DNA from: Heterotrichella gracilis
Lineage: Eukaryota; Sar; Xanthophyceae; Tribonematales; Xanthonemataceae
DNA length: 59,001 nt
Assembly (NCBI GenBank): GCA_032358255.1
Contig: JAULBX010025585.1
Span: forward strand, 1 to 59,001
Direction: 5' to 3'
The notes beneath the pieces were generated by a model. That model did not search any database. It was given only the letters and a program-made list of their open reading frames with translations, and was not told the origin of the DNA. Every line of letters starts with the position of its first letter. The first letter of the stretch is position 1. The translations under genes were made by a program, and so were the position numbers. Below are positions 12,243 to 57,700 of the stretch, in pieces.

Positions 12243-15200
12243 ATGGCAGCTTCCTCCGCCGCTGTTACCACCAAGCCGACCAAAGGTGGGTGCCGCACGG
12301 TATTTGGTGGGCGAAAGGGAGGAGATCTGTGTATCCTTGCTGCTCTGCTGTGGTGACCTGATGCAGTGCTGTGTTCCAGTGTGGAGGAGGGAGGTCCAAG
12401 TCGCGGGCAACACCACCGAAGTCTACGGGATTGAAGCCTCGACAGGTGAGACTGTCGCCTCCAAGGTTGTGCAGCAGATCATCTTGGGTGGCGAGGCCAT
12501 ATGCATGCATTGACAGCAGATGCATGCATGATGCATGCATGCATTAGCCATTGTGCAGATTCGTGTCGCAAAGGTTGTTCAGAACTGCATTGCAAGTAGA
12601 CAAACGCTTGAAAGACGTGCCACTAGCAGTATTTGACAGGTGAAAACCCTGCGTTGGGTTTGCCCTGGCATGGGTTGTCCAGGCCATCTGGCAGCATGCC
12701 CACCTGCACAAACCCCTGATAAGCAAGTGGGTACTGCAGCCTAGTCGCGCTCATCATTCTACACACCGTTCATCTTCATCACGCTGGTTTCCTATCCCTG
12801 TACCAACCCTCCTGAATTCCTCCCAGGAAACCCTAGGGTTCAGGTGCTGGTCGTGCCCGGCAACCCTGGGAGTGCGGGCTACTATGTGCCCTTCATGCAG
12901 AGCCTGCACGCGCTGCTGGGGGAGGAGGCGCACGTGTATGCAGTGAGCCACCTGGGCCATGCAGTCACGCAGGGCATGGGCGAACAGGTAAGGCAACTGT
13001 GAACTCAGATTACCGCATACTTGAGTGGGGAAATGAGATTGCATCGAGCCACCGGGCCAAGCAGTGACACAGGGCATGGGCAAACAGTAGGGCAGTTATG
13101 TACGCAGATGATCTTATATATGGCGGGCCCATGTATACATGCATGTGACCCACTTGGGCATTGAAGCCACGCAGGGCATGGGCGAACAGGTAGGGCTACT
13201 ATGAACAGAGACTACCACATACCTTGGTGGTATTTGAGTGGGAACACGGGCATGCAGTGAGCCACCCGGGCCATGCAGTCACGCAGGGCATGGGCAAACA
13301 GGTAGGGCTAGTGTGAACGCTGAACTAAGTACCGCTTCTTACCATTGCTCATCAATCACGGTCAAGCAATTCATGTGGCTTTGCCACGTGCCAACAACAG
13401 ACATTGGTGAGTTCATGCGACTACTTGAAGGGCAATAATATGGACAGGAATTGGTAGATTTCTGGCTTGCTCCCCACCAGCCCCCCTATTGAGTGGCCAA
13501 GCTGTAGTAGAACAAACCCTAAATCATTGCTGCAGCAAACCCTAAAGCATGCTGTTGCAGGTGTTCAGTCTCAGGGACCAGATTGTGCACAAAGCGGACT
13601 TCATCCGGGAGCATTTATCTGATCCTGGCGCACCCCCCCTGGCGCTGCTGGGCCACTCCATAGGTGGGTCAGTGGGGAATGCACACCCTAAACCCTAAAA
13701 CAGTACTGCGCCAATATATGGGCTAAGCTTAACCTACAGTCAATTTTGGTGCATTATTTCCTGGCTATCTCTCCCTGCAGGTAGATTGTGGGCCTGCCTG
13801 GCAATACAATGTGCTGTGGCCTCCTGTGGCGTTTTTTTTTTAAAGGCAACCCCACCCTTTGCAGGCACCTACATTGCCCTGCACGCCACGCACCAGCTGG
13901 AGTCGGACACCCTAGCGCAATACCCTAATGCAGGGCAAGGGCTGCCCCCTCAGGTGCCCCCAATCAGCAAGGTAAATGAAGCAACCACCCTAGATAAGGG
14001 CTTCATGCCACTGTATCGCACAGAGCAGAGCGGCACGGATAGGGTTTCACCTTGTAGGGGTACGTTTTGGGGACAGGATGGCCACTGATTCTTGTGGTTG
14101 GTGATGTTTTGCAAGTACAACTTGAAGCAGGCTTCCATGCTTGGGGCTCTAGAGGATATCCTTCCTCAGGATTTGGGCTACCCAGGACAGCGCACAACAA
14201 GCTCACCTCACCTTCTCTCCCTACGCCACAAATCAGCTTGTCGACCCCCTCCCCTCCCCTTCCCTTTCCTCCCCTGCCAGGTGATAGGCCTCTTCCCCTT
14301 CCTCACCTGCGACCCAGCCTCCACCCGGCAGCGCATGATACGCACAGTGGCGAAATACCCTAGGGTAATGGCGGGCATAGGGGGGGCGCTGGGCAGGCTG
14401 CCGGGGGGCCTGAAAAGGGGCATGGCGGCCACATTTGGAGGTACCCCCGCACTCCTGGCATACCTGATCCTATTGCATGGGTCCTAATGTTTGGTAAACG
14501 TTACTACCAGTCAAAAGTGAGTGGTGTCACTTTTGACACAGCCACAAATTAGTAGTACCTAGCGGCCCTGCCCCACCCAATCACTCAGGAGTTTCTTTTT
14601 TTCTCACACACAATTGCTACCACAGTATACTACTGTAGTACACTACCTGCTGATACTACCACCCCTGTCCCTCACCCACCCACTCCCCTCCCACACCACA
14701 CACACATACCCATATGACCACACGCACCCTCGCAGGCAAGCTTGACCCGCATGCTCTAGAGGCCACCCTGGCCCTGCTCCACCCGGGAGTGGTGCGCAAT
14801 GCATTCCATATGGGGGGGGAGGAGTTTAGGGAGCTGGCGGCACCCGCAGACTGGGAGATGCTCCAGGGGCTGGGTGAGGCTGGGCACCCTGGAAAACCCT
14901 AGTGTGGGGTTTGCTTTGTGGTCACGGTGCATTCCGTGCGGAGGGGTTGAAAACCTCAGCGTATTGGTTAGTTTTGTGGGTGCGCAAATCGTTGGTTTGG
15001 ATGAGGTATTCTGGAAGGTCCTGCATGTTTGCTTGCTGGGGACTCGGGTTGCGCCGTGAAAATATAATCCTTTATCTGTTAAGATAAAGTGAGCCAGTCG
15101 CTGCCAGGGAGGGACAGCTACTGCTGCCACATGTGGTTGGCAACACCAAATGTAATTACTGATGCAGTTGCATTGTTTAAAACATTGCTATCCTTTTCAC

Positions 15201-15971
15201 ATGGTTTTTTTTTGGGTGGGGGTCATTGCTCCCCTTGGCTGTGAAAGGAAGAAGGGAACGCCAACAGGGACAGGCAAGATAAAACACACAGCTGACCTGA
15301 ATCAACCTTCAATGGCTTGTAGGATCCAGAGCGGCTGTGGTATGCGCGCCCAATGACGTGTGGTTCCCCAGCTGGAAATGGGACCAGATGAAGGAGCGGG
15401 TGCCGGGAATAGAGGTGCGAGCAGACACCCCTTTCGGTGATGATGGTTTTTGCTGTAGGCATCCTTGCCATCCTTAAGCAATTGCCATTTCTAGCCTAGG
15501 TTTAACACTGCGTCGTATACCGTATGCATGCAATTTGTTTTATTATTCATTTGGGGCTTCTGCATGTATAACACACGTTTATCTGGCAACTTGCAATGCC
15601 TGTGAGTTGGCTACCCAACCAAAGCAATGTATTATGATTGTTTTTGCAGTTAGTACATACTTTTATTCAGCAAGTCACAGCACCTTGTTGGGTCTCAACT
15701 CTGAGCTATACCTCCCAATCATCAGGGATCAATGTGGGTCGTTGGGGTTCATCCAAAACCTGATCCCCCACCGCAGGCCTACTGGGAGGCCACCATGTTC
15801 CATGGCTTCTGCACATGCGTGGCCACATCGCACGCACTGGCGGAGCGCCTGGCCCCAGTCATACACAGGGCACTGCAATCGCAGCCTGGGGCCCAGCCTG
15901 AGGATGGCGTTACTGGGGCTGCTGATCACCCGCAGCAGCACCAGGAGGGATGTCAACCCAGCAAGCTATGA
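12243..15971 (+). CDS. LDAH: Lipid-droplet-associated hydrolase (alpha/beta hydrolase)
   Basis: Nine exons: 12243-12285, 12380-12445, 12827-12987, 13561-13663, 13865-13971, 14281-14440, 14736-14873, 15323-15414 and 15777-15971, together 354 residues. The family fingerprint is clear. VLVVPGNPGSAGYYVPF (exon 3) is the LDAH oxyanion-loop block. LLGHSIGTYIALH carries the nucleophile Ser123 across the exon 4/5 junction. VCAPNDVWFP (about 266-275) supplies the acidic residue Asp271. His299 in MFHGF matches the catalytic His near the C-terminus of the family. LDAH proteins sit on lipid droplets and act in neutral-lipid or sterol-ester turnover; the exact substrate is not visible here. There is no signal peptide. 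The length is slightly above the animal protein's. The last 25 residues are low-complexity and unlike the family. The gene converges on the K+ channel gene. Confidence 0.88.
13046..13301 (+). repeat. Three downstream echoes of LDAH exon 3's 3' end
   Basis: The last 45 nt of exon 3 plus donor (12942-12993) recur in intron 3 at about 13046-13087, 13145-13189 and 13256-13301, spaced about 100 nt. Each keeps GGGCATGGGC(A/G)AACAG. The second and third still have GTAGGG after the AG, so they could act as donors. Confidence 0.85.
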
Positions 15972-17063
15972 TGGGGGGTCCTTTGGATGGCGTTGGTGGG
16001 GCGTGTGCCAGCCTGTGCTGCATCCCATTTCTTTCCACATGCTCCCTTCTTTCGTTTCAAAATCTGGTGACCGTATGCAACTCCTTGGATCGTATCAGGC
16101 TCCTCGTGAATGCAGTCCCATCAGTGATTGCTGATCACTTGTAATTGCATCATATATTATACCCTTTAAGGGTATATTCTAAGAAGAGTATCAAAACGTT
16201 TTTGCATTTTCTACCCTCGACCTCGTATTGGCAGCGACACAGATTGGCAATGTTACACTTGAGACCTGTCCCTTGAAAAAAAATCAGAAAGGGGACATGA
16301 CTATTGAGTTGAAACGGTTGTCTTGTCAGTACCGATATATCATATGATCACTCTCCAAGTTGGCTCAGGGCCTGCAGATGCTTGAAGAACACTCAAAAGA
16401 CATTTTTAATGTAATACGCGATGTGATACTATCTTGAGATACTCACTTGCCTGTAACAAAATCCAATCATTGTGAAAATTGTGGTTAAAGCTCTGCACGT
16501 GCCTCAGGGCTCCAGATTGGCTGGCAGCTGCAGCAACTGGGTGATGAGTGTCCAGGCAGGATGCGCGGCAGGATGCCTATATGGCATGACGTATACACCG
16601 GTACCACCAATGCTGTAAAGGCACTGCCATGGCAAGTGTTGCGACAATTGAACTACCCGGTAGGCTATTTGCACCCTTGCTACAGGACCTGACTCAACCT
16701 CACAACTGCCCCCGTACCCAAGCCTGCCAGGATTTGAAGTCACCACATGTGTCAAAAAACCCAAACAGCTAAGGTTACCTCCCCCGTACCCCCCAACCCC
16801 CCACCCCCACCCCCACACACACAGACTCACGCATCTCTCCAACGCACCCGCGTCGTCTTCAAGTGGTTATTCTGAAAAATATTTAAACTGTATAAACATA
16901 ATTATCGTAGCCGCTTCATCCGCAGACTCCTTCCTCCACCATTGTCACATTGAGTCAATAAATTTCTTGCCTGATTCCTCATCGACCAGGATCTGATCCT
17001 ATCTGACTCCATTATTCTGAATCATGCGATTCCTCATCTACCTCCATTAATGATTCAGAGTAA
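15972..17063. other. Convergent 3' region between LDAH and the K+ channel
   Basis: No exon recognised. About 1.1 kb holding both 3' UTRs. The part from about 16900 contains decayed repeats of the motif ATTCTGAATC/GATTCCTCATC next to the channel stop codon. Confidence 0.5.
16140..16144 (+). terminator. TGTAA polyadenylation motif of LDAH
   Basis: TGTAA lies about 170 nt after the LDAH stop, a normal 3' UTR distance. Confidence 0.5.
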
Positions 17064-17075
17064 TTACTCTGAATC
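17052..17075. repeat. 24-nt perfect palindrome across the channel stop codon
   Basis: The half-site GATTCAGAGTAA is followed immediately by its exact reverse complement. The TAA stop of the minus-strand gene (17064-17066) lies in the middle. Imperfect direct repeats of the same words continue to about 16960. Confidence 0.85.
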
Positions 17076-20000
17076 TTCCGATTCATCATCAGGATCCGAC
17101 TCATCCATCTCGGGCACCGCCTCCCGCAGCTCCCGATCCAGCTCAGAATCCTGGGAACCCTACGCAAGGGTTTGGCACACATGTACCGTCAGATCAGGAA
17201 GTGGCCGACAGTCATGAGTCATCTCAAGAGCACTCGGCTACAACTTGTGAAAGGAGCTGGTGCATGGCATGTGTGACCATGGGTTGGTGGGTGGCATATG
17301 TGTGTTACGCCTTGGCAAGAGATGACCGTTGGTAATTGCATGCCAAATCTCAGCACCCAGGGACACAACATCCTATGTTATAACTTTATAACATTTAGCA
17401 AGCAAGTAGCTTCATTCAACGACCAGCTGCCAATGTGTGGGTTGAACCTTTGCACGCTCGTGCGTTTTTTAACACTAATTAAGAATCGTTACTCTCAGCT
17501 GGCGATCTGGGGAGATCCCTCAATCCCCACTCTTCCAACCCTACCTTGCTTGTTCTGACTGGGCGCGCCCCCACCTCCGCAGCATGCTCTACAACGTGGC
17601 TTGCCACCCGCATGTGGTGCTGGCCGGGGTCATAGGCAGTGTCCTGCAAGGGGAGCAATACAACGATGGGTAACTTAAGCTTAAAGCACACATGTTTAAT
17701 CTTGCCCTTTACTTAGGAAAATTAGAAAGTAACACAGATTGAAAAAGTATGACTGATAAGCAGTAGCATTGGCAACGGTGGATACACTTATCATTTGACT
17801 AAGATGACAACTGATCAAAGGGAAATTTGAAGCAATGTTATGTGACAAAGGGTATACAGAACACCAATGTGTATACAGAATACCAAGGTGTACACAGAAT
17901 AGCAACGACCACCCTGGTTGTAACCCCCATGGCATATGCAGGACGCATGACATGATACAAGGGGGTTCCTAGAGTCAAGACTGTAGCTGGGGCCTTGCAC
18001 ACGCCTATATGTTACACTGAACATGGCCTTCCAGACGCAGGCAGATTTATTTCGCATTATTTGCGCTTTTTTACAATTAACTTCAGCTCCAAAAGCAGAA
18101 ATTGGCGCTGCAATTCCTATTTGGCCCCCCACCCCTGCACTCACTTCGATCCCCTGCCCGCCCCCCTCCCGCCCCACCACCTCCTCCACATCCCCCTGCA
18201 TCTCTTCCCTCAGAGACAGGCTGCGCAGGGCCTGGCGCACTGATGGGGATAGCGATTCCCCGCTGGCATCCCCACCAAGGGCTTCTACCTGGGCGAGGAT
18301 GTCGGCCCTGGGAGGCAAAGAGGGGAAGTATTACATATGAGCGTGGTTATGATAGCAATGAGTGTGGCGTAAGGGGAAAACAAAACAACCGCATACATGC
18401 TCAGGAGCACAAACAACCTGTCAATCACGAACGCATCAACCTTGCGCATGCCAATTAGCCCGCAGCAGGATGCCCTGCCTGAGACTCCCTTACTCACCAT
18501 TTGCCCTCGGGGTCCCTGCTTGACCTTGTGAGGAGGGACTGCTTGTAGTTCTCGATCAGGATTAGGGTTTAACATTTTGTGCTCAGGGTTTTCTCATTCT
18601 CCTCTTACCCTCCAGGTCCCTGCTTGCAGTTCTCAACCAGGATTAGGGTTGCTTAGGGTTTTGTCACTCACCATTTGCCCTCCGGGTCCCTGCTTGACCT
18701 TGTGAGGAGGGACTGCTTGTAGTTCTCAATCAGGCCCTCGAGCAGCTGCACAAGGGAGGAGAGGAGACAATTATACAGTATATAGGCAACAAGGAGAAAA
18801 GAATGAGAATAAATGCTGGCAGTTCATAATCAGGCCTTGAAGCAGCTGCAAGCGGGGCAGACTCCTCGCAAACCCTACAATAGGGTTCACCTGCAGGTAC
18901 ACGTTGCTCAAGACCTCCAGCCTGAGCAACCCCATGCAACAGCCACCAATAAAACCAGTAGTGCAAACCCTTCACTAGGGTTCAAAGTTTCTACCTGCGG
19001 GTACACGTTGTCCAGGTGTCTGAGGTCGCCCAATTGCAGCACCCACATGGCCACCAACTAAAACGCTCAACCCTCAACCCTTAACCCCAACCCTTCACTA
19101 GGGTTTAGGGCTTCCACCTGCGGGTACACATTGTCCAGGTGCCGCAGGTCATCCAGCCTCAGCACCCACACAGTGCATGGCGTGAGGCAGCGGTAGGTTG
19201 CCAGGCGGTAGCGGCAGTCGGGGATGCGCGGGGCCAGGACCGCAGCCTTGCCCAGAATGGAGGGCGGGCGGACGAGCTCAAGCTCGCGGGTGTGGCGGAT
19301 GGCAAGGATCTCGCCTGCAAAGGGACGGAGGAGGGGGGGGAGAGGTGAGGGGCGATAGGGCACGTGAGTACAACATTAGCTATAAGAGATGTACAATCAG
19401 GAATGCATGGTCCCCATCACCTTCGTGCAGGCCCCACATGCAGTCCGCCTCCTCTGTAGTAACACCAAACCCTAAACCCTAAACCCTAGACCCCACCCAC
19501 CTTCCTGCAGGCACCACATGCAGTCCGCCTCCTTTGTAGAAGCCCTCAACCCTCAACCCTAAACCCTAAACCCCACCCACCTTCCTGCAGGCACCACATG
19601 CAGTCCGCCTCCTTTGTAGAAGCCCTAAACCCTAAACCCTAAACCCTAAACCCCACCCACCTTCCTGCAGGCACCACATGCAGTCTGCCTCCTCCCCCTG
19701 CCTGCACAGGTCGTGGCCAGGCGCCACCTGGCAGGGGCTCATGACAGCCGCCAGGTGGCGCAGCGTGGTGGCATCCATGCCCTTGAACACCTCGCTGGCT
19801 CGAAGCACGTCCTTGACCATGTGGTAGGCCACGTCGGTTTGGAGGGGCGCGGGCATCTCTTGGAAATAGGTGGACTCGTTTATCTCTGCACCACATGAAG
19901 AGTTAAGGGTTTGGCGATAGGGCTCGCATGCTGTCTATATCCACATGTCTGAGCAGCAGTGCCTGGCCCATCTCTTCGGCTTGCGCAAGACACCCTAAAT

Positions 20001-23000
20001 AGTAAACCTAGACCATCACCCAAAACCCTAGTCCCACCTGCTGTCTGTATCCACACATCTGAGAAGTAGTGCCTGATCCTGCTCTTGAGCCTGCTGGGGA
20101 ACTTCCTGCGCTTGAACCACGCCTCAACGCCCTGCATCTTCTCACGCACCTGTGTTCAAACCAACACATCAGCTATCGACCCATGAGTCAAACAGTCGAC
20201 CTTTCATTTCTGCAGATGATTCCCCTGCGCCTGAGTGAATACTCATGCCCGCCTTAAGGCTTCCAAAGTTGGCATTTTCCGTTTCCTTTCGTTTTCTATA
20301 CGAGTTTATCAGTGTTGAAATATACACCATGGAACATAGCAAACCAAGTCGCCTGTGGGGTGTTCACGCGTGGATTAAATTTTCCAAATTCAATGGAAGT
20401 TGCAACCAGCGTTTCCGTTTTCAACACCAAATGTTCTTGTGTGCGCACCATCTGGGACTTGCGTGCATTCCTTCCGTAGTTGCGCAGCAGGTCTCCCATG
20501 CTGTTGATCAGGAAACTGAAGCTGATGACCCCAATGAACATGAACAGGGAGACCACGATCTGAGAGAAGGAAGAAACAACATGGTGGTCAAAGCTGATGG
20601 TGATGGTGGTGATGGTGGTAATTATGATGCCATGTTGCTGCTGAATGATATCTGATCCCCTTTAACATGCATAAGATAAGAGACACCACCACTTAAGGAG
20701 CTGGAGGGAAATAAAACATGGTGGTTGAAGCTGCTGGTGTTGATGACGACATTGACTGAACTTGGATGATTTGCCATGGCATGCTGAGGACAACCGTCAC
20801 CTGCTCAGTGGTTGTGATGGCTGACACATCCCCAAACCCCACTGTGGACAGTATGGTCATTGTGAAGTAGACTGCGGCAACCCATTGCTGGATCTCAGAT
20901 GCAGTCGACAGGTCATTGGGGCCTGCACAGTTTGGAATGGAGCACAGGGTAAAATGGAGCACATTTTAGAATGGAGCACAGCTTAGAGTGGAGCACAGGG
21001 TAAATGGAGCACAGTTTAGCAAGCAGGGCGACTTTATTGAGCACCTCTCACAGTCTGGCAAGCCCGGGTGGGTCCCTAGATGTGACTGTTGATGAACAAA
21101 TAGGATAAAAAACAAAGAACTGGAACAAGTTTTCTTTAAAATGCTGTAACAAGGCTGCACCCGATGTCCAAAATAAAAGAAATTGATGTTATGTCGCGAA
21201 TTTGTGCTGCCACTCACCGACCATGGTGAGCCAGCTGACCTCCACCCCGCCTGTCTGGTACACCGCCACGAAGCGCAGCACGCACGCCAGGAAGTTGACC
21301 AGCACGCAGGTTGCGTACACCACGTTGAGCAGGAACATGGTGCCCATGGGCATGTGGTTGAGCAGGGCGCGGTTCACGCGGCTGGAGATCGACATGTCAA
21401 GCATGCCCTGCGGGGAATGGAAGGGGTTTTAACCAGGGTTTATAGGTTTTTGAGCAGAGCTTGTAGGGTTTTAACAGGAATTTCAGGGTTTTCAGGGAGG
21501 GCATGGTGCATGCAACTGGAAATAAGCATGTCAGCATGCCCTGTAGAAGGGTCCCGGGGGCGTGTGTATGGTATCCAAGCTTAGCTGGGCAGACGATTGA
21601 CGTATCACGAATGCCATGCACGCCGGAGTCGCTTCCATCCCTCCGCCATTAATTCCCGCTCACCCACACAGCAGCCGAAACACCCTCACTGTGGCAGCAC
21701 AACAACATTTTGACCCACAAGCCACAGTGTTTTGGACGGTGTAGGGTGTGTCTGAGCTCACCCTGAGCAAGCGCGCCACCCTGAGCACTCTGAGCAGCCT
21801 GAGGTATGTGAGAACATGCAGACCCGCGCCGCGCTGGATGGAGGGGACGGAGGCGTAGACGGCCTGCGACAGAGGCGAGGGAATTAGGGTTTTGTTCAGT
21901 GACCACCCTGGATGGAGGGAGGGGGTACTTGGCCAGCACCGCCTTCAGCTACCGTTATCTCTGATTGATTGTTACAAACCACTGATTGTCAGGGTCTAGG
22001 GTTTTATAGTTTAGAGGTATTCTTACCTCTGGTATGAATGCCAATGTGGCCAGCACGTCTGTCATGCAGTGGCCATGCCAGAAGTAGTACCAGGCGAACC
22101 CTAAACCCTAAACCCTAACACATGGAATAAATATTTCGAACTCTTTACCTCTGGTATGAATGCCAGCGTGGCCAGCACGTCTGTCATGCAGTGNNNNNNN
22201 NNNNNNNNNNNNNNNNNNNNNNNNNNNNNNNNNNNNNNNNNNNNNNNNNNNNNNNNNNNNNNNNNNNNNNNNNNNNNNNNNNNNNNNNNNNNNAACACAT
22301 GGAATAAATATTTCGAACTCTTTACCTCTGGTATGAATGCCAGCGTGGCCAGCACGTCTGTCATGCAGTGGTCGTGCCAGAAGTAGTACCACGCAAACCC
22401 TAAACCCTAAACACATGGAATAAATATTTCGAACTCTTTACCTCTGGTATGAATGCCAGCGTGGCCAGCACGTCTGTCATGCAGTGCCCGTGCCAGAAGT
22501 AGTACCAGGCGATGCGCTTGCCATCCATGACCAGCTTGCGCTGCATGCCGTACTTGACCGTGAAGCCGGTGGAGAAGTTCATGAGGATGTCGATGAGGTA
22601 TATGATGCCTGCGGGCACATCCACCGTTTGATCACACCCAAAGACCATTCAACTACATATGAATGACGTACAGCGCAGATGGTGGGGACAGAATGAACAA
22701 CAGCCAACCGAGGAGGGCGGGCAATGCCCTTGCCATTGCCGCAAAAATCGAGTGAGGATGTCGATGAGGTCCCTGCGGGCACATCCACCATTTGATCACA
22801 TCCATCGATCGATCAACCAAATAGATTGGTGCATGCATGTTTTGGTGGCAAATTAAAAAATGAATGCTATAATTTTGTCTTCTTGTTGAATGCTATACAA
22901 CAAGATGGGTGGGGAAGTGAACAGTGGCTGAGGTGGGCGGGCGATGCCCTCGAGGGGCAGTACCGCAAATCTGAGTCCTCTCCTTCCCTCCGAAGCCTGG

Positions 23001-25854: not shown

Positions 25855-28788
25855 TCATGCCGTGCTCCTGCTGGCCATCTTCTCCTTGAGCGCCTCCACC
25901 ACATCCTCCTTGGTGGCAAGATCAAGGGGGGTCTTGCCATCGTTGTCCTAATCATAACACACACACACCACATGTTTAGGGTTAAGGGTTCAGGTCAAGA
26001 GGGTTTTACCCTCGTCGTCCTGATGATAACATACACACACACCACCTGTCTTTGAAGTTGAACAACGTGAAGCATGGCATCTTTTTCCAGGTCAAAATTC
26101 AAGTTTTGCTTGGTGCAGCACGCGTAGCTGTAACTAGCAAAGGGCCAATGGGTCATGTTGACACCACCGCGGCAATGCATGGATCAAGGCCTGCCAAGCA
26201 AGTGCCAGGTGGCCAGGTGCAGGCATTACTGCCACACACCCCAGGCAACAACTCCTGTGTGCGCACATGCACGCTGTTGCGGTCCCAGTGATGTCGCCCC
26301 AGGGCATGACATCACGATGCTGCATGCCCCTCCATGTGCACCTCACAGCTGGTCTAGGATAACGGGAAGTGTTTTGTGGTTCGCACGAGGGTTCTCACCT
26401 TGACTGTAGGGCCTGCACCCGCCCTGACTAGCAATTATATTTGTGGCATGTCGTTCTGGCTAGAATCCTTGATAGGGTTCGCATTAGGATCCGACAAGGG
26501 ATGTCGTTAGGGTTCTCACCTTGACGGTAGGGTCTGCGCCCGCCCTGAGCAGCGACTCTATCTGGGGCATGTCGTTCTCAGAGGCAGCCATGAGCAGGAG
26601 CACGTCCACAGGCTGCCGCCCTACACAGGGTAATGGGTCCACTGGTTAGGGTTGGAAGGCTGAGCCTAGGTTCTGGTCATGCGCATAAGCACGGGCACAT
26701 ACTTTGTTCTATATTCTTTTAATGGAGGAGTGTTTTTTTTAAAAGCGGGTGGCGTGCCAAGGTTAGGATTCAATGGGGAAGGTGCATGCCCCAAAAACAT
26801 GTGCGCCATTGGTGTGTGGCTTGCACCCATGCATGAAGTGCTGCGTACCGTTGCATGCATAGCCCCGTCCACGTGACAGCACCCTGAACGCACATGCACA
26901 AGGCCTGTGGGCGCATCTGGGTGCGAATGATGCATGCTAGCCCCCATGTAGATGTTCAGGGTTTAGGGTTCAGGGATTCTATGGAGATGCATGTGAGCTC
27001 CAGCAGGCCCCACATGGGTATTCAAAGGTGCATGTGGGTGCCAGCTGCCCCACATTGGCCCCATGCATGCCCATGTGGCTACATGCTAGCCTCACGTGGA
27101 GTGCATGCGGATGCCATATGGACCATGACATGAAGCCTGCAGCACCAATTTTCCTGCTCGTGACCTGATGCATTCATAAACCCTACCCCTAATGCATTCA
27201 TGAACCCTAAAACCCTAACCACTAGACTTACCCTCCATCAAGGCGTACATGCGGTCGTAGGTGCCCTGCGCAAGGGGGAGTTGGCCAATTAGCTAGGTAC
27301 AAGGCTTCCAGCAATGCAGCCAGATGAGCAGGGCCAAGGGAGGGACGCTTGTGTGAGTGCTGCGGTGGGCGCAAGCCGGTGCAAGCGCAAGGCTGGTGGT
27401 CAGCGCATGTATGATTGTCACCATTAGAATGACATTAAATGTAAATTAACCCACGCCATGTAGGGTAAGCACAAACCCTCTGATACTGCACACCCCGTAG
27501 CCATCGGATTACTCAACGCCCATCAATCCTATAACCTAAGATTTGACCTGTGCACCAGCATGTCGTTGGTCTGCTCATGCCTGGCTAGCATGGCAGCCAC
27601 TGTATCCACATTGGACTGAACACCGTGCATGCAACGTGTTGCGCAACTGATTGTTTAGACCAAGGTGCCATTAGCCAACGCTGGATGGTGAACTCTTGAA
27701 TGCACCCATACACACTAGCACTCCTGGTAACTTTGCTGTTCGGGGTTATCGGCAGTGCTAGTGTCAATAGATGCATTCAGGAATTCACCACCAGCGTCTG
27801 GTTGATGGCACACATGGTCGCAGTCTCGGGCACAGGAGGCTTAATGCATTCTGTTACAGAAGTCCGCATGCTCAATGTCCTTGCGAAACCACTCCCTCCT
27901 AAGTTCTGACGAAATGAATCCTACATTACTCCAAGCAAAGCCTTGAACATAACCCTAACCTAGCATACCCTAGACAAACCCATGGGAAAACCCTACTTCA
28001 ACCCTATCCATGACCATTAACCCAAGCCTTACCTCCGTGGCCAGCATGCCCATGTAGTTAAAATAGTCCTCCACATCCTCGTTGTTGAAGTCTGACCGGG
28101 ACTTGGTTTCAAAGGCTGCAGGGGTGAAATAGTGGAATTGGGTCACATCCCAGCTGTGGGCACGTGACAATGCGTTGCCAAGGGTCGTGCGGGGAGAGGC
28201 AGGAATGATGGGGGCAACCGTTGGACAAGGCGGGAGGCTAAGGGTTAATGTTGTGTGCGTTGAAGTGCGTGCTGCAGTCTGAGTGTGGCTTGCCATTGGG
28301 CTTGATCCGTGTGGTGGGTGGTATGGGCAAAACGGTGTGCAGGTGCGCATGTTAAGCAATGTGCCAGGAATCCATACAAGAGTTCAGGGCACAGTCTTAT
28401 GGCACATATATAGAGCATGACTCACAAATAGTCTATGTATGATATAGAGCATGGCAAAGATGGCGTTGGCTAGGCCTATTGTAAACAGCTGCAAGTGTCA
28501 AACTAGGCTGGCTTTTCAATACACACAGCGTAATGACAGAAGTCTACATGCATCTGCTGCAGTCACCTTGCACTCATTTTTTCAACCCCCACCTTCCTCC
28601 TTGGCGCCACCTAGCCCGAACCAGGCATGGCAGCGAGCCCCGTTCTGTACCGAAGTGCCCAGCTGCTTGCCAGATACGCTGCTGCTCCTGAAGGCCAACC
28701 TGCACACGCTGGCTGGTCGTCTGCTGACCGTGCTGCGTGCTGCAACTGGCGCGGATGCTGTTGAGCACAGCGCGACTTGTGCTGCCAT
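25855..28788 (-). CDS. LTD: LHCP translocation-defect protein LTD (plastid ankyrin protein)
   Basis: Five exons: 28593-28788, 28033-28115, 27232-27265, 26520-26620 and 25855-25947, 168 residues. LTD (also called GDC1) receives imported light-harvesting chlorophyll proteins at the inner envelope and hands them to the chloroplast SRP pathway. The first 50 residues or so are an Ala/Ser/Arg-rich transit peptide (MAAQVALCSTASAPVAARST). Family-specific blocks follow: NNEDVEDYFNYMGMLA, GTYDRMYALMEG, then QPVDVLLLMAASEND and the ankyrin segment LLRAGADPTVKDNDGKTPLD, as I remember them from the plant protein. The start is the first ATG preceding the transit peptide. Its length fits the family. It is head-to-head with coproporphyrinogen oxidase. 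Introns are long relative to exons and contain exon echoes. Confidence 0.9.
26002..26459 (-). repeat. Echoes of LTD exon 5 start and exon 4 end inside intron 4
   Basis: 26002-26042 repeats the beginning of exon 5 with its upstream intron (GTCGTCCTGATGATAAC versus GTTGTCCTAATCATAAC). 26394-26459 repeats the last 50 nt or so of exon 4 with its donor. Both lie in the same intron, one at each end. Confidence 0.8.
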
Positions 28789-29537: not shown

Positions 29538-33645
<4,108 letters not shown>

Positions 33646-35419
33646 CGCCAGGGGGGGGGTTGGGAGGGGGGGGACCCTATGGGGCTTGTGCGCAATCCCA
33701 GTAGGGGTTTGTGTCGATGGGCCATACCTAGTGACTCGCAGCAGCAATTGACTGGTGGGCTGGGAACGATCGTTGGGCACTGTGTGGCATTGTGCTTTGC
33801 ATGCAGGCGTGCGTGCAGAAGCTTAATTCAATCACGTGCTGCACACCAAGTGCTAGGACTGTGTGCCTCTGGTGGGTGTTCCTGACTGGAAGTGTGGATA
33901 AGCCCAGCGTGTGTGTATTTATGGACTTGCATATCAATTTTTGCTCGGCCCAGCACATGTTGAACAAACGAGTACACATGTAGCCTTTTGTTGTGCAATA
34001 TGCAAGGCGCGTTTGGGCAGTAGATGCCTGCGTTGCCTCTGTTAACAACGCTTTTTCGGTACTCATCCCTCTCTGGGTGACATCATCTGGTGATGTAACT
34101 AGCACTGCTATTTCACCAAGGTTGTCGTACTATATATGTATGCACTGTAAGCGCTCTGGGCAGGGCGTCAAGAGGTGGCAACTGACACATGCATCGCATG
34201 GCTGGTACCCTGCGTGGACGCCAAGGGCTGCCACGACACCCTGTTTCAAAGTTTGCGTTCAGCTCAAAGCTGATTTCAGAAGCTGTTCCCTAGAACCTGG
34301 TATCACACGGTCAGCAGCTTGGGGCAGTGCAGCTCTTTGGCACAAGTTGAAGGTGTTCCAACTCAGGAGAAGCTTCGTATTTTCAAACGTTCTCAAAGGG
34401 GGGTGGGTAAGGCATGGGAGTCGACTGTTTTGAACAACGTATTTGTATCTGCCACACTAAACCGCGACCCCTTGCGGTGGTCGCACCAGCGAAAACACTG
34501 CTGGCCCACCAAAAGACATACTACTGCCTGTGGACACCCACGCGCAACGGATTCCGTCACAATTGCACTGCGGAGGTAAGATGCATGCATGCATTGGATG
34601 TGGATGATTCGCCCGCCATGTCTGCATTCGGGGCGGCGCAAAAGCCGCTTCACCTTGTTGAACACGCACACTCTGCACTGTGAATATCCGCTTCGCTCAA
34701 CTAGGGTACCCGTCTTGCGTGTAGGACGGCCCCTTGTGCACCCGCGCTGCAGCAACCCCCCACATGTACATGTACCCCCCTGCATGCAACGCTGAAGTAG
34801 TGTGGTTCCCTGCAGCGGCCACGTGCAACTCGATGACGTCAAGTAGACGAGCCAAAAAAGGTGAGACTTGTAGCTTAATAGTAGTTAAATCCTTCCAGTT
34901 TGCGCCAACTGGTGCATTTTGCCCACCGAGGGTTGCCACCTTCTATCCACGACAGCTGGCAAGGTAGACCTTGTTATACCAGCACGTAGGTGTATTCAAC
35001 TCACTTGCACACCATTAGGAGGCTTCACAGCGATGATTATGGCCATGTGCATGCGTTATGGTTCCCACGTGGTCCTCCATGCAGCTGACAGCGTGTGGGT
35101 GGGGGGCGGGGCTGCAGCACGCATGTCTCCTCTGGCAACGCCGCTTAGCGGGGTTGTGGTAGTTGTACGTGTGTGGTGGGGACTGACTGCGCTTTTCGAA
35201 CCCCCTGTGCATTTCAGTCCCCTGTCCCCGCTTTTTGGACCTGCGCACAGGCAAAAGGGGTTGGATGGGGTTGGGAAAATGGGGTTGGGTGCATGATCCC
35301 ACCCAGCTGAGGCGTATGATGGATTTGGTGGGGGTGGGCCGGTAGCTGCGCACGTGTGTCCATACCGTTATCAAGCAGGTGATTGTGGTCCTTGAGTGCG
35401 TGTTTCAACCCTTGCGCAG

Positions 35420-36327
35420 GGTTCAAGAAGCTTGCGCTGCACCTGCACCTGCAGCGCCCCCTGCTGGTCCTAGACACAGAAACCACGGGCTTCGACCCAT
35501 ACACAGAGCGCATCGTGCAGATAGGCTTCCTCAAACTGCACCCAGATGGCGACACCACCGAGACAACATGGCTGGTCAACCCCGGGCAGCGGATACCCCC
35601 GCAGGCCACCAGCGTGCACAACATCGGGGATGAAGATGTGGAGGATGCGCCTTGCTTTGGCGAGGTGGCGGATGCCATTGTGGAGTGGTTCAAGGGGTGT
35701 GACCTGGCAGGGTACAACATATTGGGCTATGATCTGCTTATTTTGTTGGCGGAGTTTGAGCGGCTGGGACGGGAGCTGCCACTGGGTGAAAAGAAGCTGG
35801 TGGATTCTTCCTTCATTGAGAAGTACTTTCTTCTCCAAAATCCAGTCACTAACTGGAACGGCAGCCGCCTGCAGTGGCGCGAGTTCGAGATCCTGTGCAC
35901 AGACTACCTGCAGGAGAGCCAGCCTGACCTCCTTGCAGAGTACCTTGCGCAGCAGCACACCGCGCTGGGGGACTGCCGCGCCACCTGCCACGTGCTGCTG
36001 CACCAGCTGGCCAAGTACAGCCTGCCCCCCTTTGTGTCCAAGCTGCACAGCCTCGGCATGAAAACCCTAGGGTCACTTCCCGAAAAGGCGGACGTGCACG
36101 AGTTCCTTCAGCTAATGCTGGCCGAACCGATTCCTGCATCTTCCTCGGAAGAAGAAGATGATATTGAGGATGAGGAGGGGGAGGAGGATGACTCTGAGGC
36201 GCCCCCTTCGCTCATGGGGGAGTCGGATGGCAACAGTGACGAGGAGGCGGTGGCGGTGGCGGTGGCGGTGGCGGAGGCCCGGCCCGGGAGGGGCAGCGCC
36301 AGCAAGAGGAGACGCATCAGCAGGTGA
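35420..36327 (+). CDS. DEDDh-family 3'-5' exonuclease (5' partial)
   Basis: One long exon follows an acceptor CTTGCGCAG (35411-35419) and gives 301 residues to TGA. The exonuclease fold is complete. ExoI is LVLDTETTGFDPYTERIVQIG (Asp and Glu metal ligands). ExoII is the region DLAGYNILGYDLLIL. ExoIII is HTALGDCRAT, with the His and Asp of the H-x4-D DEDDh type. This is the fold of the DNA polymerase III epsilon proofreader (DnaQ), also used by many DNA/RNA trimming enzymes. After the domain comes a linker, then an acidic stretch (about 35 residues with 20 Glu/Asp), an (AV)4 run and a basic KRRRISR end that could be a nuclear signal. No in-frame ATG precedes the domain inside this exon, so at least one upstream exon is missing. 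Substrate unknown. Confidence 0.85.
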
Positions 36328-38156: not shown

Positions 38157-41100
38157 CTATGATGCATTCCCCCCCTCTCCCCCCAGCGCGGTGCTGTGAG
38201 TGAACAGGAACACCTCCAGTGGCCTCACCCCCGTGCGGTCAAGTACAGTGGGGTCTGGACCAAACATGCCACTGGGGTTGGTGATAACCTGTGTGGGTGG
38301 GGAGGCAGGGGTGAATAACCGTGGGTGTGGGGTGCAAGCCAGGTGCCATCTGGGGGCACCAAGGGGGGGATCAGGATCAAGGGGAATGGTGGCAGGGCCT
38401 GGAACAGCGCCGCAACAGCAGGGGTGGTGACAGCCTGGGCAAGAGGGGAAGGGGAGGGGAGGGGAGGGCAGGGGAGGGGGAGAGGGGGAGGGATCAAGAG
38501 GCCTCAGGCGGCAACAGTTGCGTGCCGTCAGTGTTCTAGGGTTTAGGGTTTGGGGTTGTCGACAGCAGGGCCTATAGGCTTGCAGGCACAAGGACAGGAC
38601 GGCCCCCACCGTTTTCTCCTAAACTTGGCTCTTCCGTTTTGCTCAAAAGAGCCCAATCCCCCTTCCATCCCCACCCGCACCTGCATGCGCGAGTCCAGGG
38701 TCCACTCCCATCCCCACCCTGTCTCGCACCACCGTGGCTTGGATGGCGGGTGAGGCATGGGCACATCCAGGTCACCCCAGGGATCGCTCTGATCCCAGAA
38801 GGAGTCGCACAGGGGGCCCGAGTGGCGCATGCTGGTGTAGCCTAGAGCCTAGGGTGAGGGGAGGGGAGGGGGTGTAAAGGAGGGGGGTAGGGGCAAAGTG
38901 TTGTGTATGCAACATTAAGGTATGATATGCGAGAGGTATGCCTGCTGTGCCACGAGGTCACCAGTCCTTCCTCCACTTGGATGGGCGATCATTGCAGTAG
39001 GTATACCGCATACCACATGCGCATCCGGTTTACCATATACTGTGTGTTGGCGAGGCAGGGGGGGCCTGCATTGTGGGCACGAGAACATGCAGCTGCGGAA
39101 ACGGTGCATGCAGATGGAGGCGCCTCCATCAGCATGTGGAGCGGGACGATGCGGGCAGTGGGTGGTGGCAAGAGGGAGAGATGCAGGCGAGTGTGACAAT
39201 GTGGGCGCGAGAGTTGCCCACAATGCGCAATCAGCAAAGGAATGCATGGCCTAGACCACGCACCCTTACCAGCATGACCCGCAGCCCCCTGACCAGCTCC
39301 GCCTTGGACAGATATACACCCTAAGGGTCAAACCCTACACCCTGAACCCTACACCCTTACAATGACCTCCGCACCTCCCTGGCCAGCTCCTCCTTAGACA
39401 AATATACAAAAACCCTACACCCAAAACCCTACACCCTACATCCCAACCCTACACCCTCACCAGCATGACCCTCCCCAGCTCCTCCTTGAACAGACAATAG
39501 AAAACCCTACACCATATATCAAAACCCTACACCCTGAACCCTACACCCTTACCAGCATGACCCTCCGCAGCTCCCTGACCAGCTCCTCCTTGGAAGGCGC
39601 CCACCTGATGTCATTTCTATCCAGCGGCCACTCAACCAGCACCACGCGCGGCGGCGGCCGGGACTTGAAGGCCAGGCGGAAGCCCATGAGGATGCGCGCC
39701 GCCTGGCGGTGTGCGGCCACCCGCACGGCTGCGATGGTGCCGCCAGCGCTGTTCACGGCAACCTGGGGGTGTGGAGGGGTGGATGGTGGGTGTGTGAGGG
39801 GGCGGCCTCAGAGGGATTTATGTGTGTTGGTCTGAAACCCTGCACCCTGCACCCTAAACAGGGCGGCCTTTGAAGGCCAGGCGGAACCCCGTGAGCATGC
39901 GCGCCGCATGGCGGCATGCGGTCATGCGCAGGGCGGATGTCGTCCTGCCCAACTGCGTCCACACCCTCTGCACTGCATGTCCGCAACCCTGGACAAGCTA
40001 GCTGCGTCTCGCTGCCCAGTGCATAACAGTACTGGATTAATGACCTCGATTGTAAGTCATATACGGTATCTTACCCAGAAGTGGAACAAACACAGAGGGC
40101 ACATCCAGTCCTCCCCACACCCACCCCCCTGCATGCCCGCCCCACCCCCCACTCCCTCCCTTCTCACCTGCGTGGACACCCTCTGGACCGAGTGCTCGCA
40201 CCCCCCTGCCCCCACCCTCTCCACCTCGCTGTCCATTGCATAGCCATACCCAAAGGCCTCGCTGGACTGGTGGGTGGCGGCGGTGGTGGTGGTGGTGGTG
40301 GTGGTGGTGGTGGTGGAGGGGCGCAGCCGCGTGCACACAGCGGGGGAGGGCTGGAGACCAACAGCAACCTGGAGGTGGGGGGGGGGGGGGGGGCAGCGGG
40401 TTTGAGATGGCGGGAGAGGGGAAGCACTGCCTGAGCAGGTGCAGAGGTGGGTATTGCCTTGTCTGGCATGCAGAATGGAGGCAGACACGGGATCGCCATG
40501 TCCTTTTCTGCCGTACCATGCCTTGCATATTTTGCCATGTCCTGACATGCTTAACTTGGTTTCGGAGCCTTGCCACAGTTTTCCCCCCTGACTTCCACCA
40601 CCACCCATGACCCCCTGCCACCCACCTTGAACAGCTTGAACCTCCCCCTCAGGTTGTTATATGCCAGGCTGGACTGGAGCGCTGCCAGGCTGCGGGGGGC
40701 AACCTCAAAGGCTGCGACGTGGATGCCGCGGGAGGCGGCGAGGAGCGAGAAGCTTCCGTAGCCTGGGCCATGGGGTGGGGGTGGGGTTTAGGGGAGGGGA
40801 CAGGCTGCATGTAGTAATAAGAGTAATAATAATAATAAACAGATAATAATATAACAATATAAACAATCATTGTTTCCATACGAAAATTAAACAATCATGA
40901 TGATAATAATAAGAGGCTGGGCGCATGCTTAGAGGTGGTGGCGGAGCTAAGGTGGTCACCGAGGCAGGGCCTCATGTTGCCCCACAGTGCTTATGACTGA
41001 GCACTCCAATCTCCACATTCCCCAGCCCTGGACATGCTCCTGCATCCCCTACCAGGTGAACCCACCCGCACCAGTGCCACTGCCCCTACCCCCCATCCCC

Positions 41101-53641: not shown

Positions 53642-54719
53642 CGTGGCATCAACTCATGGTTTACACTCTCGGGCAGACTACGAGAGCCACCTTACTCGCA
53701 TCGTCCAAGGCTGTGAAAAAACACGAACGCAGCAGCCTCTGTATATGCACCAGTGCTCGTGCCACATATGCATGCATCAGAACGCTACGAGGAGGAATAG
53801 TCCCCCTTGAACAAGGGAATGCTGACCTCGATAAGGCTCGAGCCCGTTGTGCGGTATGCCACAGAACCTTGCCAGGAGGTCTTGCTTGAGGACGGTGGCT
53901 TTACTCCAAGCACCTGTGCACGGTTCCGATTTTGCCAGAAACCCTGGCACATGGCATGGTGCTGCCAAAGTATGGCACGCGCGACACGCGCTGTAATAAG
54001 CAGCAAGGAGTGCAGCGCCGGTGGTGAAGTCAAGCAGTAAACCAGTCTGGTTACTGGAGACCTGAGCAAAGCCCACCTTCGAACCCAGGTATCGATCGGA
54101 GATGCATGCATGCATGCATATGCCCTCGTGCACGGGCGCAGGTGTGGGTCTTGCCGTGTTCCCTTTGGTACACCAGCGACGCCCAATGAGATATTTTGGT
54201 CTCCTTATTCGGCTGACGAGTCCATCTCGTACAACTACGTCTGTTTATACAGGGATCTCTTGTTACCCCTTGCCCAAAATGGGTGCCTTACTGCACTAGA
54301 AAAGTGGGGCCCTAACTCTGAACCCGCCGCTGCCTGTACTAATACCCCCGCCCGCTGGTCGTCTGTAATGCCCACCGCGGTCTAGGCCTTTGTGACCCAT
54401 CACCCAACCTGTCCATGCATACTTTTCCCATCCCACCAGCCAGCTGGCCCATGACAGGAGAATGTTGTGGGTGGGGGCAAAGGGAGGGGTTGCAGACGTG
54501 GGTAAACCATCTGGGCGGCTGTTGATGGCTACCTTACTTTGCTATGGGTCATGACACCTCCCTTTCCTCCACAGCATACGGGGGTATCTGCCTCACGCCG
54601 CATCTCGCACGCACCCAAGCCATTGCCACCCCCCCACCCACCCGCCCTCCTCCCCACCAGCCTCACCACACCGCGCACCACCCGCAGGCACCACCCGCAG
54701 GCGGACAAGGAGGGGCGCA
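53642..54719. other. Divergent spacer between PEX22 and signal-peptide gene
   Basis: Contains both promoters. A TGCA-rich tract (ATGCATGCATGCATGCATAT) lies at about 54101-54120. No exon recognised. Confidence 0.45.
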
Positions 54720-57700
54720 ATGGCTGCCCCCACCCGCCACCCACCCACCCCCAGGTCTGCCGCCCTGCTGCTGTTGGTGGTGATAGGGCTGTGCCAGGTG
54801 GCAAGCTGTCGACAGCTGAAGGGGAAGGAGGACAGCCTGAGTACGTGGATATACTGCAAACCTTATACCCTACGCCTTACGCCTTGGAGCGTAAAGTGTA
54901 CCTGATTAGGGCTGATAGGGCTGTGCCAGGTGGGGAGTTGTGGGCAGCTGATGGGGGAGGAAGGCAGCGCGAGTGGGTGATATAAGTGGCCTGCCCGCTT
55001 TGGAACCTGTGCACCTCCCTCGCCAGGGGCGCACATACCCTGCTAGGGTAATTATATTCCCTCTGCACGTGGCACCATTCGTCGACCACCAGCGTGCACC
55101 ACATACCCCACTTCCGTCTGCCGATGCCCTCTGCATGTGCGCTCTGTGGTCATCAGCCCCCGCACACATCCCTTTCATCGCCACCCTTGGCAGCATCGCC
55201 GTTACGATCCCACCTCCTTCAAACCCTCCCAAACCCTCCACCCCCTCTCCACCCCCCACCCTGCACCACCCCACCACATCGCAGTCACCAATTGTACCCT
55301 CCTTTTCCCCCTTGCCCAACCCTCCCCCCCACATCACCACCACCGCCACCCTCCCCCCCGCAGCCATCAAGTGCAGCCTCACCCTGTCAGACACCTCCTC
55401 CCGAGACAGGCGCCTCTCGGTCAAGGGCCTGGTCTCCAGCACGCACAAAAAGTGCGAAAAGGTGTCATTCTCGCACCCCGTCATTGTCACCAAGGCCATC
55501 ATCTACTGCCACCTGCTGGGGGACCATCACAGCGCCTCGCAGCACAAGGACGCGTGTGGGGCGGCGCGCGCGGTGGCGTTTGCGCTTGTGCCGGTGAACG
55601 ACACCAAGCCGCACTTTTTCACGGGGGGCAGGGCTGCGTGCGGGGAGGATGCGTCGGAAGCAGGTGGGTGGTAGTGGGGGGGTGAAGAGGGGCGCTGGGT
55701 AAAGGGGGAGAGGGGGCCGGGCCGCTGAAGAGGAGGAAGCATTGGAAACAGGGGGGGGTACACCACGTGGCCGGAGGCAGTCAGTGGCAGTGCTGGCATG
55801 GGCACCGTCAGTAATTGGTGGTAATGGCGGCGGGTTACTTCATGCCATGCCACCTATGCACACATGTGGGTGCATGCGCACCTGCCTGCCATGACAGCGC
55901 AGCTGCGATCAGACCCATATCGATCACTCATATTCACGCCGATCACTCCTCATCACACCGATGACTCCTCACCTCACCCAGCTCGTGCACCCATAGCCAT
56001 CACCTAAATCGATCACACCACACTACACCACCGCCCACACCCGTGCACCGGTAGAAACCTGAGTGACATTCCAATCACATGCCAACCGTCCCTTTCTCAC
56101 CCCTCCTTTCCTGCCAGGCGCCATCATCACCCCCAACCTGCCCAACGCGGTGCGCCAGGCCGCCATCTGCTTCAACGCAAAGGACCGCAAGGGGGCAAGC
56201 AAGTCGGCTGGGCTGCTGAAGCCTGTAGGGGGGGGAAACACAGAGATGCTGCAGGTGGGGAGGGGGTTGTGGGGTGTTATTGTGGGTGCGTTTGGTGTTG
56301 GTTTCATGTGGCTGGGTCGGGGCTTGTTTGGGTGGTAGTGTCGTATATCATCTGTGTATACAAGTGGGTGTGCAGAACATGTGTACATGGGCATGGAGTA
56401 GGGGGTGGTCAGGTGCAGCAGGCATGTGAGGGGGACGCAAAACCCTACAACCTGTACGGAGACCCTGAAACCCTAGCCATTACAAATGGTGTATAATGGG
56501 TGGTGCTGCAGACCATTGAACGTCGCCAGCCGTGCGAGGCGCACGTGAAACCCTACAGCATTACATCCCTCTGCACCCACTTCCCAGGAGCCAAGCTCCA
56601 GATGGCAAAGGCTGCAAACCCTGAAATCTTACTCGACCCTACCTGAAACCCTACCCCGCCACCGCATCACGCGATTAAAGGTGCCAGCCACATGAAGGAA
56701 TGCAAGACCCTGAAACCCTCCCTGAGTACCTAAAACCCCACCTCACCCTACCTGAAACCCTACCATTCCACCCCCTTGCAGGAGGCCATGCTCCAGATGG
56801 TGAAGGCCGCCAGCCACGTGAAGGAATGCAAGACCCTGAAACCCCACCTAAAACCCTAAAAACCCACCTGACCCTACCTGGAACCCTAAAACCCCCACCC
56901 GAACCCCTTTGCAGGAGGCCATGCTTCAAATGGTGAAGGCCGCCAGCCACGTGAAGGGGAGCCGCTCCGACAAGAGCAAGCGCAAGGGGGGCGGGGTGCT
57001 GGATGAAACCGATGACATGGACCTGGACAGGCCATCGCTGGCCATGGCGGGGTTCCAGGTGAGAGCAGGGTTTTTTGCTGCACCGGGTACTGCGTGATGC
57101 AGAATGTAGCGATATTTGTCATGGTGTGCCACAGCCATGGCCGTTTTTGACCACGTTACCTCTAACCCTGCCCTCACCAATTCCTCGATTACCACCTTCA
57201 GGACACTGATGCGGACCTGAACCCAATCTTTGTAACCGCATCCACCCCCCAAAAACCCTATTCCAACACCTCGTATGCACCCCCCACCCACGCACCCACG
57301 TACACCGCCACCACCGCCACCACCCCGCAAAGCGGAGATCAAGCGCCACCTTTGCTGTCGCGCCCACCTCCCAAACCCTACTCCACACCTTAATACGCCC
57401 TCCCCCCCCACCACCTTCGATACAGGGCTGCCCCCCTTTCCAAACCCTACCCCGAAACCCTACACCCCCCCGCCCACCCACCCCCACCCTCTCCTCCACC
57501 CCCTGCAGGTGATATCAGACGCCGAGCTGAACGCCACCTTTGCTGGCTTACCTCCAAAACCCTACTCCACACCCTCATATGCCCAAAACCCTACAATCCC
57601 CTGATCTTTGTCGCTGCACCCACCTTCAAAACCCTACACCACACCCTCATATGGCCCCACTGCCACCAGGTCCCCTCCAATGCATGACTGATCCCCTTCC

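Follow-up and report, generated by a model that had tools for sequence, protein, structure and literature searches.

The window, a stretch of 59,001 nt from contig JAULBX010025585.1 of the xanthophyte alga Heterotrichella gracilis, carries intron-rich genes in which an exon end, together with its splice site, recurs inside the adjacent intron. They include a K+ channel gene (Pfam Ion_trans and cNMP_binding), CPOX, an LTD candidate, a gene earlier called GT-methyltransferase, and LDAH, identified by a Pfam LIDHydrolase match in the downstream gene model. The junctions of CPOX introns 32542-32925 and 33064-33320 are covered by a gap-free alignment to Chlamydomonas CPOX; among the CPOX sequences listed as matches, the nearest shares 77% identity. 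A scan of the window for tRNAs and Rfam families found nothing, and a search of the assembly for the RuBisCO large subunit was likewise negative. The copies, referred to here as echoes, are listed below.

12945-13094, + strand: LDAH; exon segment 12945-12995 with a downstream echo at 13046-13094 (score 28, 51 nt)
18498-18641, - strand: K+ channel intron 18308-18671; upstream exon 3′ edge copied at 18498-18560 (97%) and 18620-18641 (91%)
18995-19047, - strand: K+ channel intron 18746-19117; one copy of the upstream exon 3′ edge (81%)
19421-19613, - strand: K+ channel intron 19315-19660; 3′ edge copied three times (19421-19454, 19501-19533, 19581-19613), with TTTAGGG arrays (gene sense) between them
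19929-19984, - strand: K+ channel intron 19886-20037; 3′ edge copy (79%)
22027-22394, - strand: K+ channel intron 21864-22441; three TTTAGGG-joined copies of the 3′ edge (22027-22097, 22149-22193, 22326-22394), one interrupted by a 100-N assembly gap (22194-22293)
26399-26457, - strand: LTD candidate (gene model without a Pfam match), intron 26354-26519; 3′ edge copy (83%)
30332-30348, + strand: CPOX intron 30279-30423; 17-nt copy of the downstream exon 5′ edge
31118-31140, + strand: CPOX intron 31041-31696; upstream exon 3′ edge (23 nt, 96%)
32588-32628, + strand: CPOX intron 32542-32925; 3′ edge copy (90%) preceded by TTTAGGG-like repeats
33226-33267, + strand: CPOX intron 33064-33320; downstream exon 5′ edge copy (90%), followed by AAAACCCTA
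39270-39482, - strand: gene called GT-methyltransferase in the first-pass annotation, intron 38789-39552; 3′ edge at 39270-39308, 39362-39398 and 39461-39482
54913-54974, + strand: intron 54845-55092 of a predicted gene model; 3′ edge copy (82%)
56770-56957, + strand: 55-nt pair 56770-56824 and 56903-56957, an acceptor with the exon 5′ edge, with AAACCCT-like repeats between
57208-57624, + strand: intron 57059-57767; downstream exon 5′ edge copied in part four times (57208-57247, 57332-57368, 57509-57543, 57606-57624)

The six example loci named in the first-pass annotation (in the K+ channel and CPOX genes and at 39262-39600 and 56776-56960) all hold such copies. The gene finder called both 56770-56824 and 56903-56957 exonic, which is probably wrong.

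Echoes were counted in 309 kb of the assembly, comprising the window and 250 kb from two other contigs, on which the gene finder was trained; the gene models underlying all intron counts are ab initio. Of the 319 testable introns, 53 hold a direct and partial copy of the edge of an adjacent exon. When each intron is aligned with its flanking exons, 61 of 638 edges are echoed at a local score of at least 14 (37 at donors, 24 at acceptors), all in direct orientation. At that score the reverse-complement control gives 0/638, and length-matched introns swapped in from other genes and dinucleotide-shuffled introns each give a mean of 0.0 over three draws. Chance or composition is ruled out as their source by the inverted, swapped and shuffled controls, and exon-edge echoes are real and far above chance. 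With a complexity filter 40 of 449 edges are echoed. Weak or simple-sequence matches among the 61 include C2 83652 (14 nt) and window 13972 and 2178. The first-pass annotation had 3′ edges echoed downstream and 5′ edges upstream; this is partly built into a search confined to the adjacent intron, but far edges of the flanking exons match in only 2 of 470 cases and other exons of the same gene in 6 of 2542, which also rules out copying from distant exons.

An assembly artefact is extremely unlikely to account for the echoes. It has in its favour the gap inside one echo array (22194-22293), and against it the divergence of the copies from their exons (0-28%) and their recurrence on contig C2, once on C46 and at three of six further heptamer loci. 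Rates differ between contigs: introns with an echo number 19 of 67 in the window, 33 of 196 on C2, 1 of 56 on C46 and 0 of 15 on C771. The two loci searched for haplotigs, and those only, are both single-copy in the assembly.

In support of a process that lengthens introns, those with an echo average 399 nt and echo-free introns 285 nt, although longer introns are more likely to hold an echo regardless. The filler may be either inserted sequence or old intron: after removal of the exon-derived parts echo introns average 331 nt, compared with 285 for echo-free introns and 379 with length bias. Copied splice sites persist as possible decoys, with GT kept in 23 of 37 donor-side and AG in 17 of 24 acceptor-side echoes. 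This retention might suggest that selection keeps the echoes as functional decoys or alternative exons, for which there is a slim chance: the copied sites seldom exceed the real ones in strength, many are lost, and identity to the exon decays over a broad range (0.72-1.00). The spacing of the copies is a multiple of three in only 16 of 61, without frame bias, which rules out in-frame alternative exons. Acceptor and donor decoys show no clear difference in decay.

TTTAGGG is the organism's own telomere repeat. (CCCTAAA)10 stands in telomere orientation at the starts of five contigs and on the other strand in four further contigs, and C626 encodes a TERT domain (Telomerase_RBD, two exon matches). 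In the assembly AAACCCTAAACCCT occurs at 7154 places and the reversed pattern at 4. Introns with an echo have 3.4 times the heptamer density of the others (6.30/kb against 1.83/kb) and hold 133 clusters, where length-matched introns hold 43 ± 8.6. That a TTTAGGG-like heptamer often sits at the join, as first noted, holds for about half of the echoes: 32 of 61 have an exact heptamer between the copies, but 29 have none. Over 61 joins, the 25 nt outside the inner join contain 22 heptamer matches (14 C-rich, 8 G-rich). C-rich heptamers occur at the inner join in 9 of 24 acceptor-side cases (1.5 expected) and G-rich ones in 8 of 37 donor-side cases (2.6 expected), so heptamers gather there with telomerase polarity. 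Since C-rich heptamers are found ahead of acceptors in introns without an echo as well (12/220, G-rich 0), this polarity may reflect splicing. In fillers of at least 60 nt the heptamers are not clearly nearer to the copy than to the real splice site. The suggested telomerase-like addition is consistent with the tie between the repeats and the joins, and telomerase fits as a candidate.

The echoes range in identity to their exon from 0.72 to 1.00 (median 0.86, 61 echoes), in agreement with the view that they differ in age and that the process is recurrent and has long been at work. They are concentrated at edges, with copies of 60 of 590 edges and of 5 of 485 exon interiors (61-120 nt), only one of the latter lacking an edge match. 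At a score of at least 22 copies are found at 4.9% of edges and 0.63% of intron segments, well above local tandem duplication; at the loosest score of at least 14 the difference is about twofold (8.9% and 4.0%). An annotation-blind scan for spaced copies found 23 spanning exon and intron, 9 in introns only, 4 intergenic only, 5 mixed and 5 in exons only, and all nine intron-only cases sit in introns that also hold an exon-edge echo. Both edges of one intron are echoed in 8 cases against 2.8 expected (P 0.003). Echoes do not cluster by gene (two or more in 12 genes, where 11.3 are expected). A sharp end of the copies exactly at the splice site is not claimed, as the position profile weakened this idea.

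Plain slippage or head-to-tail tandem duplication, offered earlier as one possible process, is not the whole story because the copies seldom abut and intron sequence is seldom duplicated in a spaced way. Filler of at most 5 nt separates the copies in only 4 of 56 exon-intron events (the sole class counted, the others being dropped as zero-period artefacts), and an intron-only spaced duplication is found in 1 of 266 echo-free introns. A broader version holds that small duplications from staggered-break fill-in with filler occur everywhere, that those inside exons are purged, and that those at edges stay visible longer as one copy is under selection. This account is rather unlikely, and several features suit it. 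All 61 copies are direct and none inverted, a few lie directly side by side or have intron flank in common (no filler at window 19315 and C2 4374), and in one third of cases homology reaches up to about +20 into the intron, as random duplication would give; small tandem duplications are, moreover, known to arise through CST-Pol alpha fill-in (PMC8355091). Against it, besides the scarcity of short fillers, intron-only events are far too few even when visibility is simulated: in the simulation they are detected about 0.7 times as often as edge events (average over ages), and a uniform rate would give about 58, compared with 1 of 266 echo-free introns and 5 of 319 introns after masking. Faster decay in intron-intron pairs may explain part of the edge asymmetry.

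The preference for edges, and the finding that in human and yeast cells transcript RNA alters end joining at breaks close to exon-intron junctions (PMC11390984), could also point to RNA-guided repair, in which a transcript paired with broken junction DNA directs end joining and limits the copied block to the exon. This is improbable. The copies reach across the splice site into the intron, so a spliced transcript cannot by itself have served as template; the bias of echoes along genes is not significant (rank 0.56 vs 0.49, P 0.21); and the repair in the available text of that study is independent of DNA synthesis, with no duplications reported there.

Damaged copies of exon ends, often near a stray telomere repeat, look like the scar of recurring repair at exon borders. 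It is quite possible, if short of probable, that breaks close to exon-intron junctions are repeatedly repaired in a way that carries a copy of the exon edge into the intron and at times appends TTTAGGG. A recurrent break would occur at or close to the junction; one end would copy the exon edge with its splice site and, as a rule, at most about 20 nt of intron, which would leave a direct copy in the adjacent intron, and the other would sometimes be extended with the cell's own TTTAGGG before the ends are joined. The gene would survive by continuing to use the outer, original splice site, the copy being removed by splicing. This would make the intron longer and give it a decoy splice site, after which the copy would decay. 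We infer the break, the copying polymerase, the part of telomerase and the cause of the edge preference from the arrangement of the copies. Against junction repair, C46 (1/56) and C771 (0/15) are almost without echoes. A mutational process anchored to the splice junction, probably linked to splicing or transcript RNA and completed by telomerase, which repeatedly copies exon ends into introns and is a main source of intron growth and decoys in this alga, is possible but doubtful. The earlier interpretation as a whole is partly supported.

If edge copying is truly bound to junctions, introns would gain sequence from their own exons by a route open to dating and counting, and the origin of intron sequence becomes a testable question. 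Many of the thousands of internal telomere repeats may then be by-products of edge copying, and DNA repair, telomerase and intron evolution would be tied together in one organism. The echoes resemble exons and are a warning for gene-prediction pipelines, as the gene finder used here seems to have mis-called one.

Templated insertion by Pol theta yields copies in both orientations. In the algal fillers local similarity is inverted in 7 of 51 and direct in 18 of 51 (control 4/51), while inverted exon-edge copies occur at 0 of 638 edges. Ordinary small tandem duplications share the direct orientation; they are joined head to tail without filler and occur at a similar rate in all unconstrained DNA, unlike the echoes, although at the loosest score the rates differ no more than twofold. 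Like introners and introner-like elements (PMC8469720), the echoes would reflect a lineage-specific process shaping introns. Introners form families of repeated elements, whereas the three long algal fillers that were tested are single-copy in the assembly, which speaks against a mobile filler family; filler repeats in the 309-kb sample are short matches only, mostly telomere-like.

Introns can be gained by tandem genomic duplication of an exon segment containing AGGT (reviewed in PMC3443670). There too duplicated exon sequence lies inside an intron, but a new intron is born and the upstream exon end recurs at the acceptor. In the alga an existing intron is lengthened and the echo is internal, followed by a donor-like site and more intron; by the coordinates listed at a score of at least 17, donor-side echoes stop about 43 nt or more short of the intron end and none abuts the acceptor. 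RNA-mediated end joining at exon-intron junctions (Jeon et al. 2024, PMC11390984) is similar in that the repair outcome is tied to the junction, but the outcomes given in the available text are deletions, intron loss and flipping, and exon-edge copies are not among them.

CST-guided fill-in by Pol alpha-primase at 3′ overhangs generates small tandem duplications (Schimmel et al. 2021, PMC8355091). These are likewise direct, local and tens of bases long and arise at breaks through a telomere maintenance complex, whereas the algal copies are usually separated by filler and concentrated at exon edges. In mammals, telomerase inserts interstitial telomeric sequences at double-strand breaks (Nergadze et al. 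2007, PMC2246262), sometimes with added sequence or duplication of the flank, the latter at 6 of 130 loci in rodents and 4 of 25 in primates. The alga has comparable short internal arrays of its own telomere repeat; unlike the mammalian insertions, its heptamers concentrate in introns beside exon-edge copies, and insertion is read here from one assembly.

The echo pattern, in which an intron carries a partial direct copy of the exon edge beside it, is widespread yet patchy in the DNA sampled. When up to 60 nt of exon from each side was aligned with the adjacent intron, 319 introns yielded 37 copies of upstream exon ends (donor side) and 24 of downstream exon starts (acceptor side) at a cut-off score of at least 14. 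Reverse-complemented, swapped and shuffled introns yielded zero at that cut-off. Echoes occur in a total of 53 introns: 19/67 in the window, 33/196 on contig C2 and 1/56 on contig C46. The result is independent of the window, because C2 and C46 were not picked by the first-pass annotation, which had noticed the echoes in the window from sequence alone. C46:1-50000 and a 20-kb hold-out, C771:200001-220000 (0/15 introns), are almost echo-free, and telomere-type heptamers (TTTAGGG, G-rich, or CCCTAAA, C-rich) are scarce on C46 too. Eight 3-kb stretches with heptamer arrays were also drawn, two of which were dropped for overlap; the six used contained seven echoed edges among 17 introns, contributed by three of the loci.

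The assembly comprises 68.5 Mb in 903 contigs, and the sample studied represents about 0.45% of the genome. All introns counted are ab initio predictions. The simple hidden-Markov gene finder was trained on 309 kb in total, made up of the window, 200 kb from C2 and 50 kb from C46, and settled on the donor GTRRGT and the acceptor YGCAG. Among eight proteins tested, the expected Pfam domains are present in the K+ channel, ABC1 kinase, two DUF819 halves, LysA-type decarboxylase, RNase III and LDAH models; the LTD candidate has no Pfam domain in this test. CPOX aligns with its Chlamydomonas reinhardtii counterpart at 74%, and named matches near the top of its list (best 120 of 8000) are chlorophyte, save a rank-1 Coffea entry; on these grounds the organism was read as a green alga. 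Read by coordinate, three of the four echo-bearing CPOX junctions are crossed without a gap in the C. reinhardtii alignment and the fourth falls at its very start; a six-residue gap lies near an echo-less junction.

Other genes were seen along the way. Two adjoining intron-bearing genes on C2 (L025:4284-6330 and L025:7809 to L026:666, in C2:1-200000) resemble LysR-type regulators, and both contain echoes; one has LysR substrate-binding and HTH_1 domains by Pfam. The window also holds a gene of two exons at 35058-36327, whose product has an RNase_T (DEDD exonuclease) domain, and three tandem ORFs (7621-8130, 9076-9615 and 9766-10218) that have a near-identical stretch in common and 48-nt CCACCATCC-type repeats between them. 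Two of the three have no Pfam match.

A copied block contains about 17-105 exon nucleotides, with a median near 40, plus the splice site and a median 8-9 nt of intron. The spacer separating copies has a median length of 59 nt for donor-side echoes and 96 nt for acceptor-side ones. Most echoed edges have one copy, with two to four in 15/61. Identity to the exon ranges from 0.72 to 1.00 (median 0.86), and the events have therefore built up over a long time. In 13 young donor-side echoes homology reaches a median of 5 nt past the splice site. The first impression from these, that homology ends exactly at the splice site, is softened by the position profile: mean intron-side identity is 0.50 at +7 to +12, 0.44 at +13 to +20 and 0.31 at +21 to +30, over a background of 0.26. 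A recent echo array in the window is interrupted by a 100-N assembly gap at 22194-22293, so its real number of copies may differ from the number seen.

Copying favours the exon edge. Copies were found in 60/590 tests of exon edges and in 5/485 of exon stretches 61-120 nt inside, only one of these five lacking an edge match as well; the same test gave 2/470 for the far edges of flanking exons and 6/2542 for other exons of the same gene. At a score of at least 14, 8.9% of edges have copies versus 4.0% of 60-nt intron segments with exon-derived parts masked, and at a score of at least 22 the values are 4.9% versus 0.63%. A cruder window scan found an intronic copy for 4.4% of exon windows lying no more than 60 nt from an intron and for 3.5% of intron-interior windows, echo arrays included, and an intergenic copy for 1.25% of intergenic windows. 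A scan for spaced copies made without reference to annotation (filler of at least 10 nt between original and copy) returned 23 events spanning exon and intron, nine intron-only, four intergenic-only, five exon-only and five mixed, and each of the nine intron-only events falls in an intron that has an exon-edge echo as well. In simulations of spaced duplications at seven ages, the detection rate of intron-only events was about 0.7 times that of edge events, averaged over ages. An estimate of our own, from about 25 edge events, about 24 kb of boundary positions that qualify and about 79 kb of intron positions, puts the number of intron-only events under uniform duplication at about 58; the actual numbers are 1/266 in echo-free introns and 5/319 once exon-derived parts are masked. 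This deficit is the strongest argument against plain tandem duplication.

Telomere repeats accompany the copies. In the assembly the two-unit repeat occurs 7154 times versus 4 for the reversed pattern; (CCCTAAA)10 occupies 11 overlapping positions on nine contigs, opening five in chromosome-end orientation and lying on the opposite strand in the other four, and contig C626 encodes a telomerase RNA-binding domain. Heptamer clusters on C2 number 2.48 per kb in introns, 0.66 in exons and 0.95 in intergenic DNA. GCATGCA (288 versus 121 expected) and ATGCATG (256 versus 91) rank next, by excess, among the over-represented 7-mers in C2:1-200000. Cluster density is 6.30 per kb in echo introns versus 1.83 in echo-free ones, and heptamers cover 11.3% of bases between copies, 5.2% of the rest of echo introns and 1.8% of echo-free introns. 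Immediately beyond the inner join, the point at which the exon copy ends, a C-rich heptamer follows 9/24 acceptor-side copies (G-rich 0), where these introns would predict 1.5, and a G-rich heptamer precedes 8/37 donor-side copies (2.6 expected), the C-rich form doing so in 5 (3.2 expected). Both preferred arrangements direct the G-rich strand towards the copy, as would be seen had telomerase lengthened the end that faces it. A C-rich heptamer also precedes the acceptor in 12/220 echo-free introns (G-rich 0), and in fillers of at least 60 nt heptamers are not clearly closer to the copy than to the real splice site; selection on splicing may therefore contribute. Binomial values for these last comparisons assume that joins are independent of one another.

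The reading we favour is break repair near exon-intron junctions. One end of the break would copy the edge of the exon, and TTTAGGG may be added to the other; the event would be tolerated because the gene stays intact through its outer splice site. Among the matches listed by a full-text search, judged by title and start of abstract and with subscription journals mostly outside its scope, none reports copies of exon edges within introns accompanied by telomere repeats. Two ingredients are known: CST and Pol alpha fill in overhangs (PMC8355091), and telomerase acts at breaks (PMC2246262). RNA-guided repair near junctions, as outlined in PMC11390984, is one candidate that could account for the restriction to exon edges.
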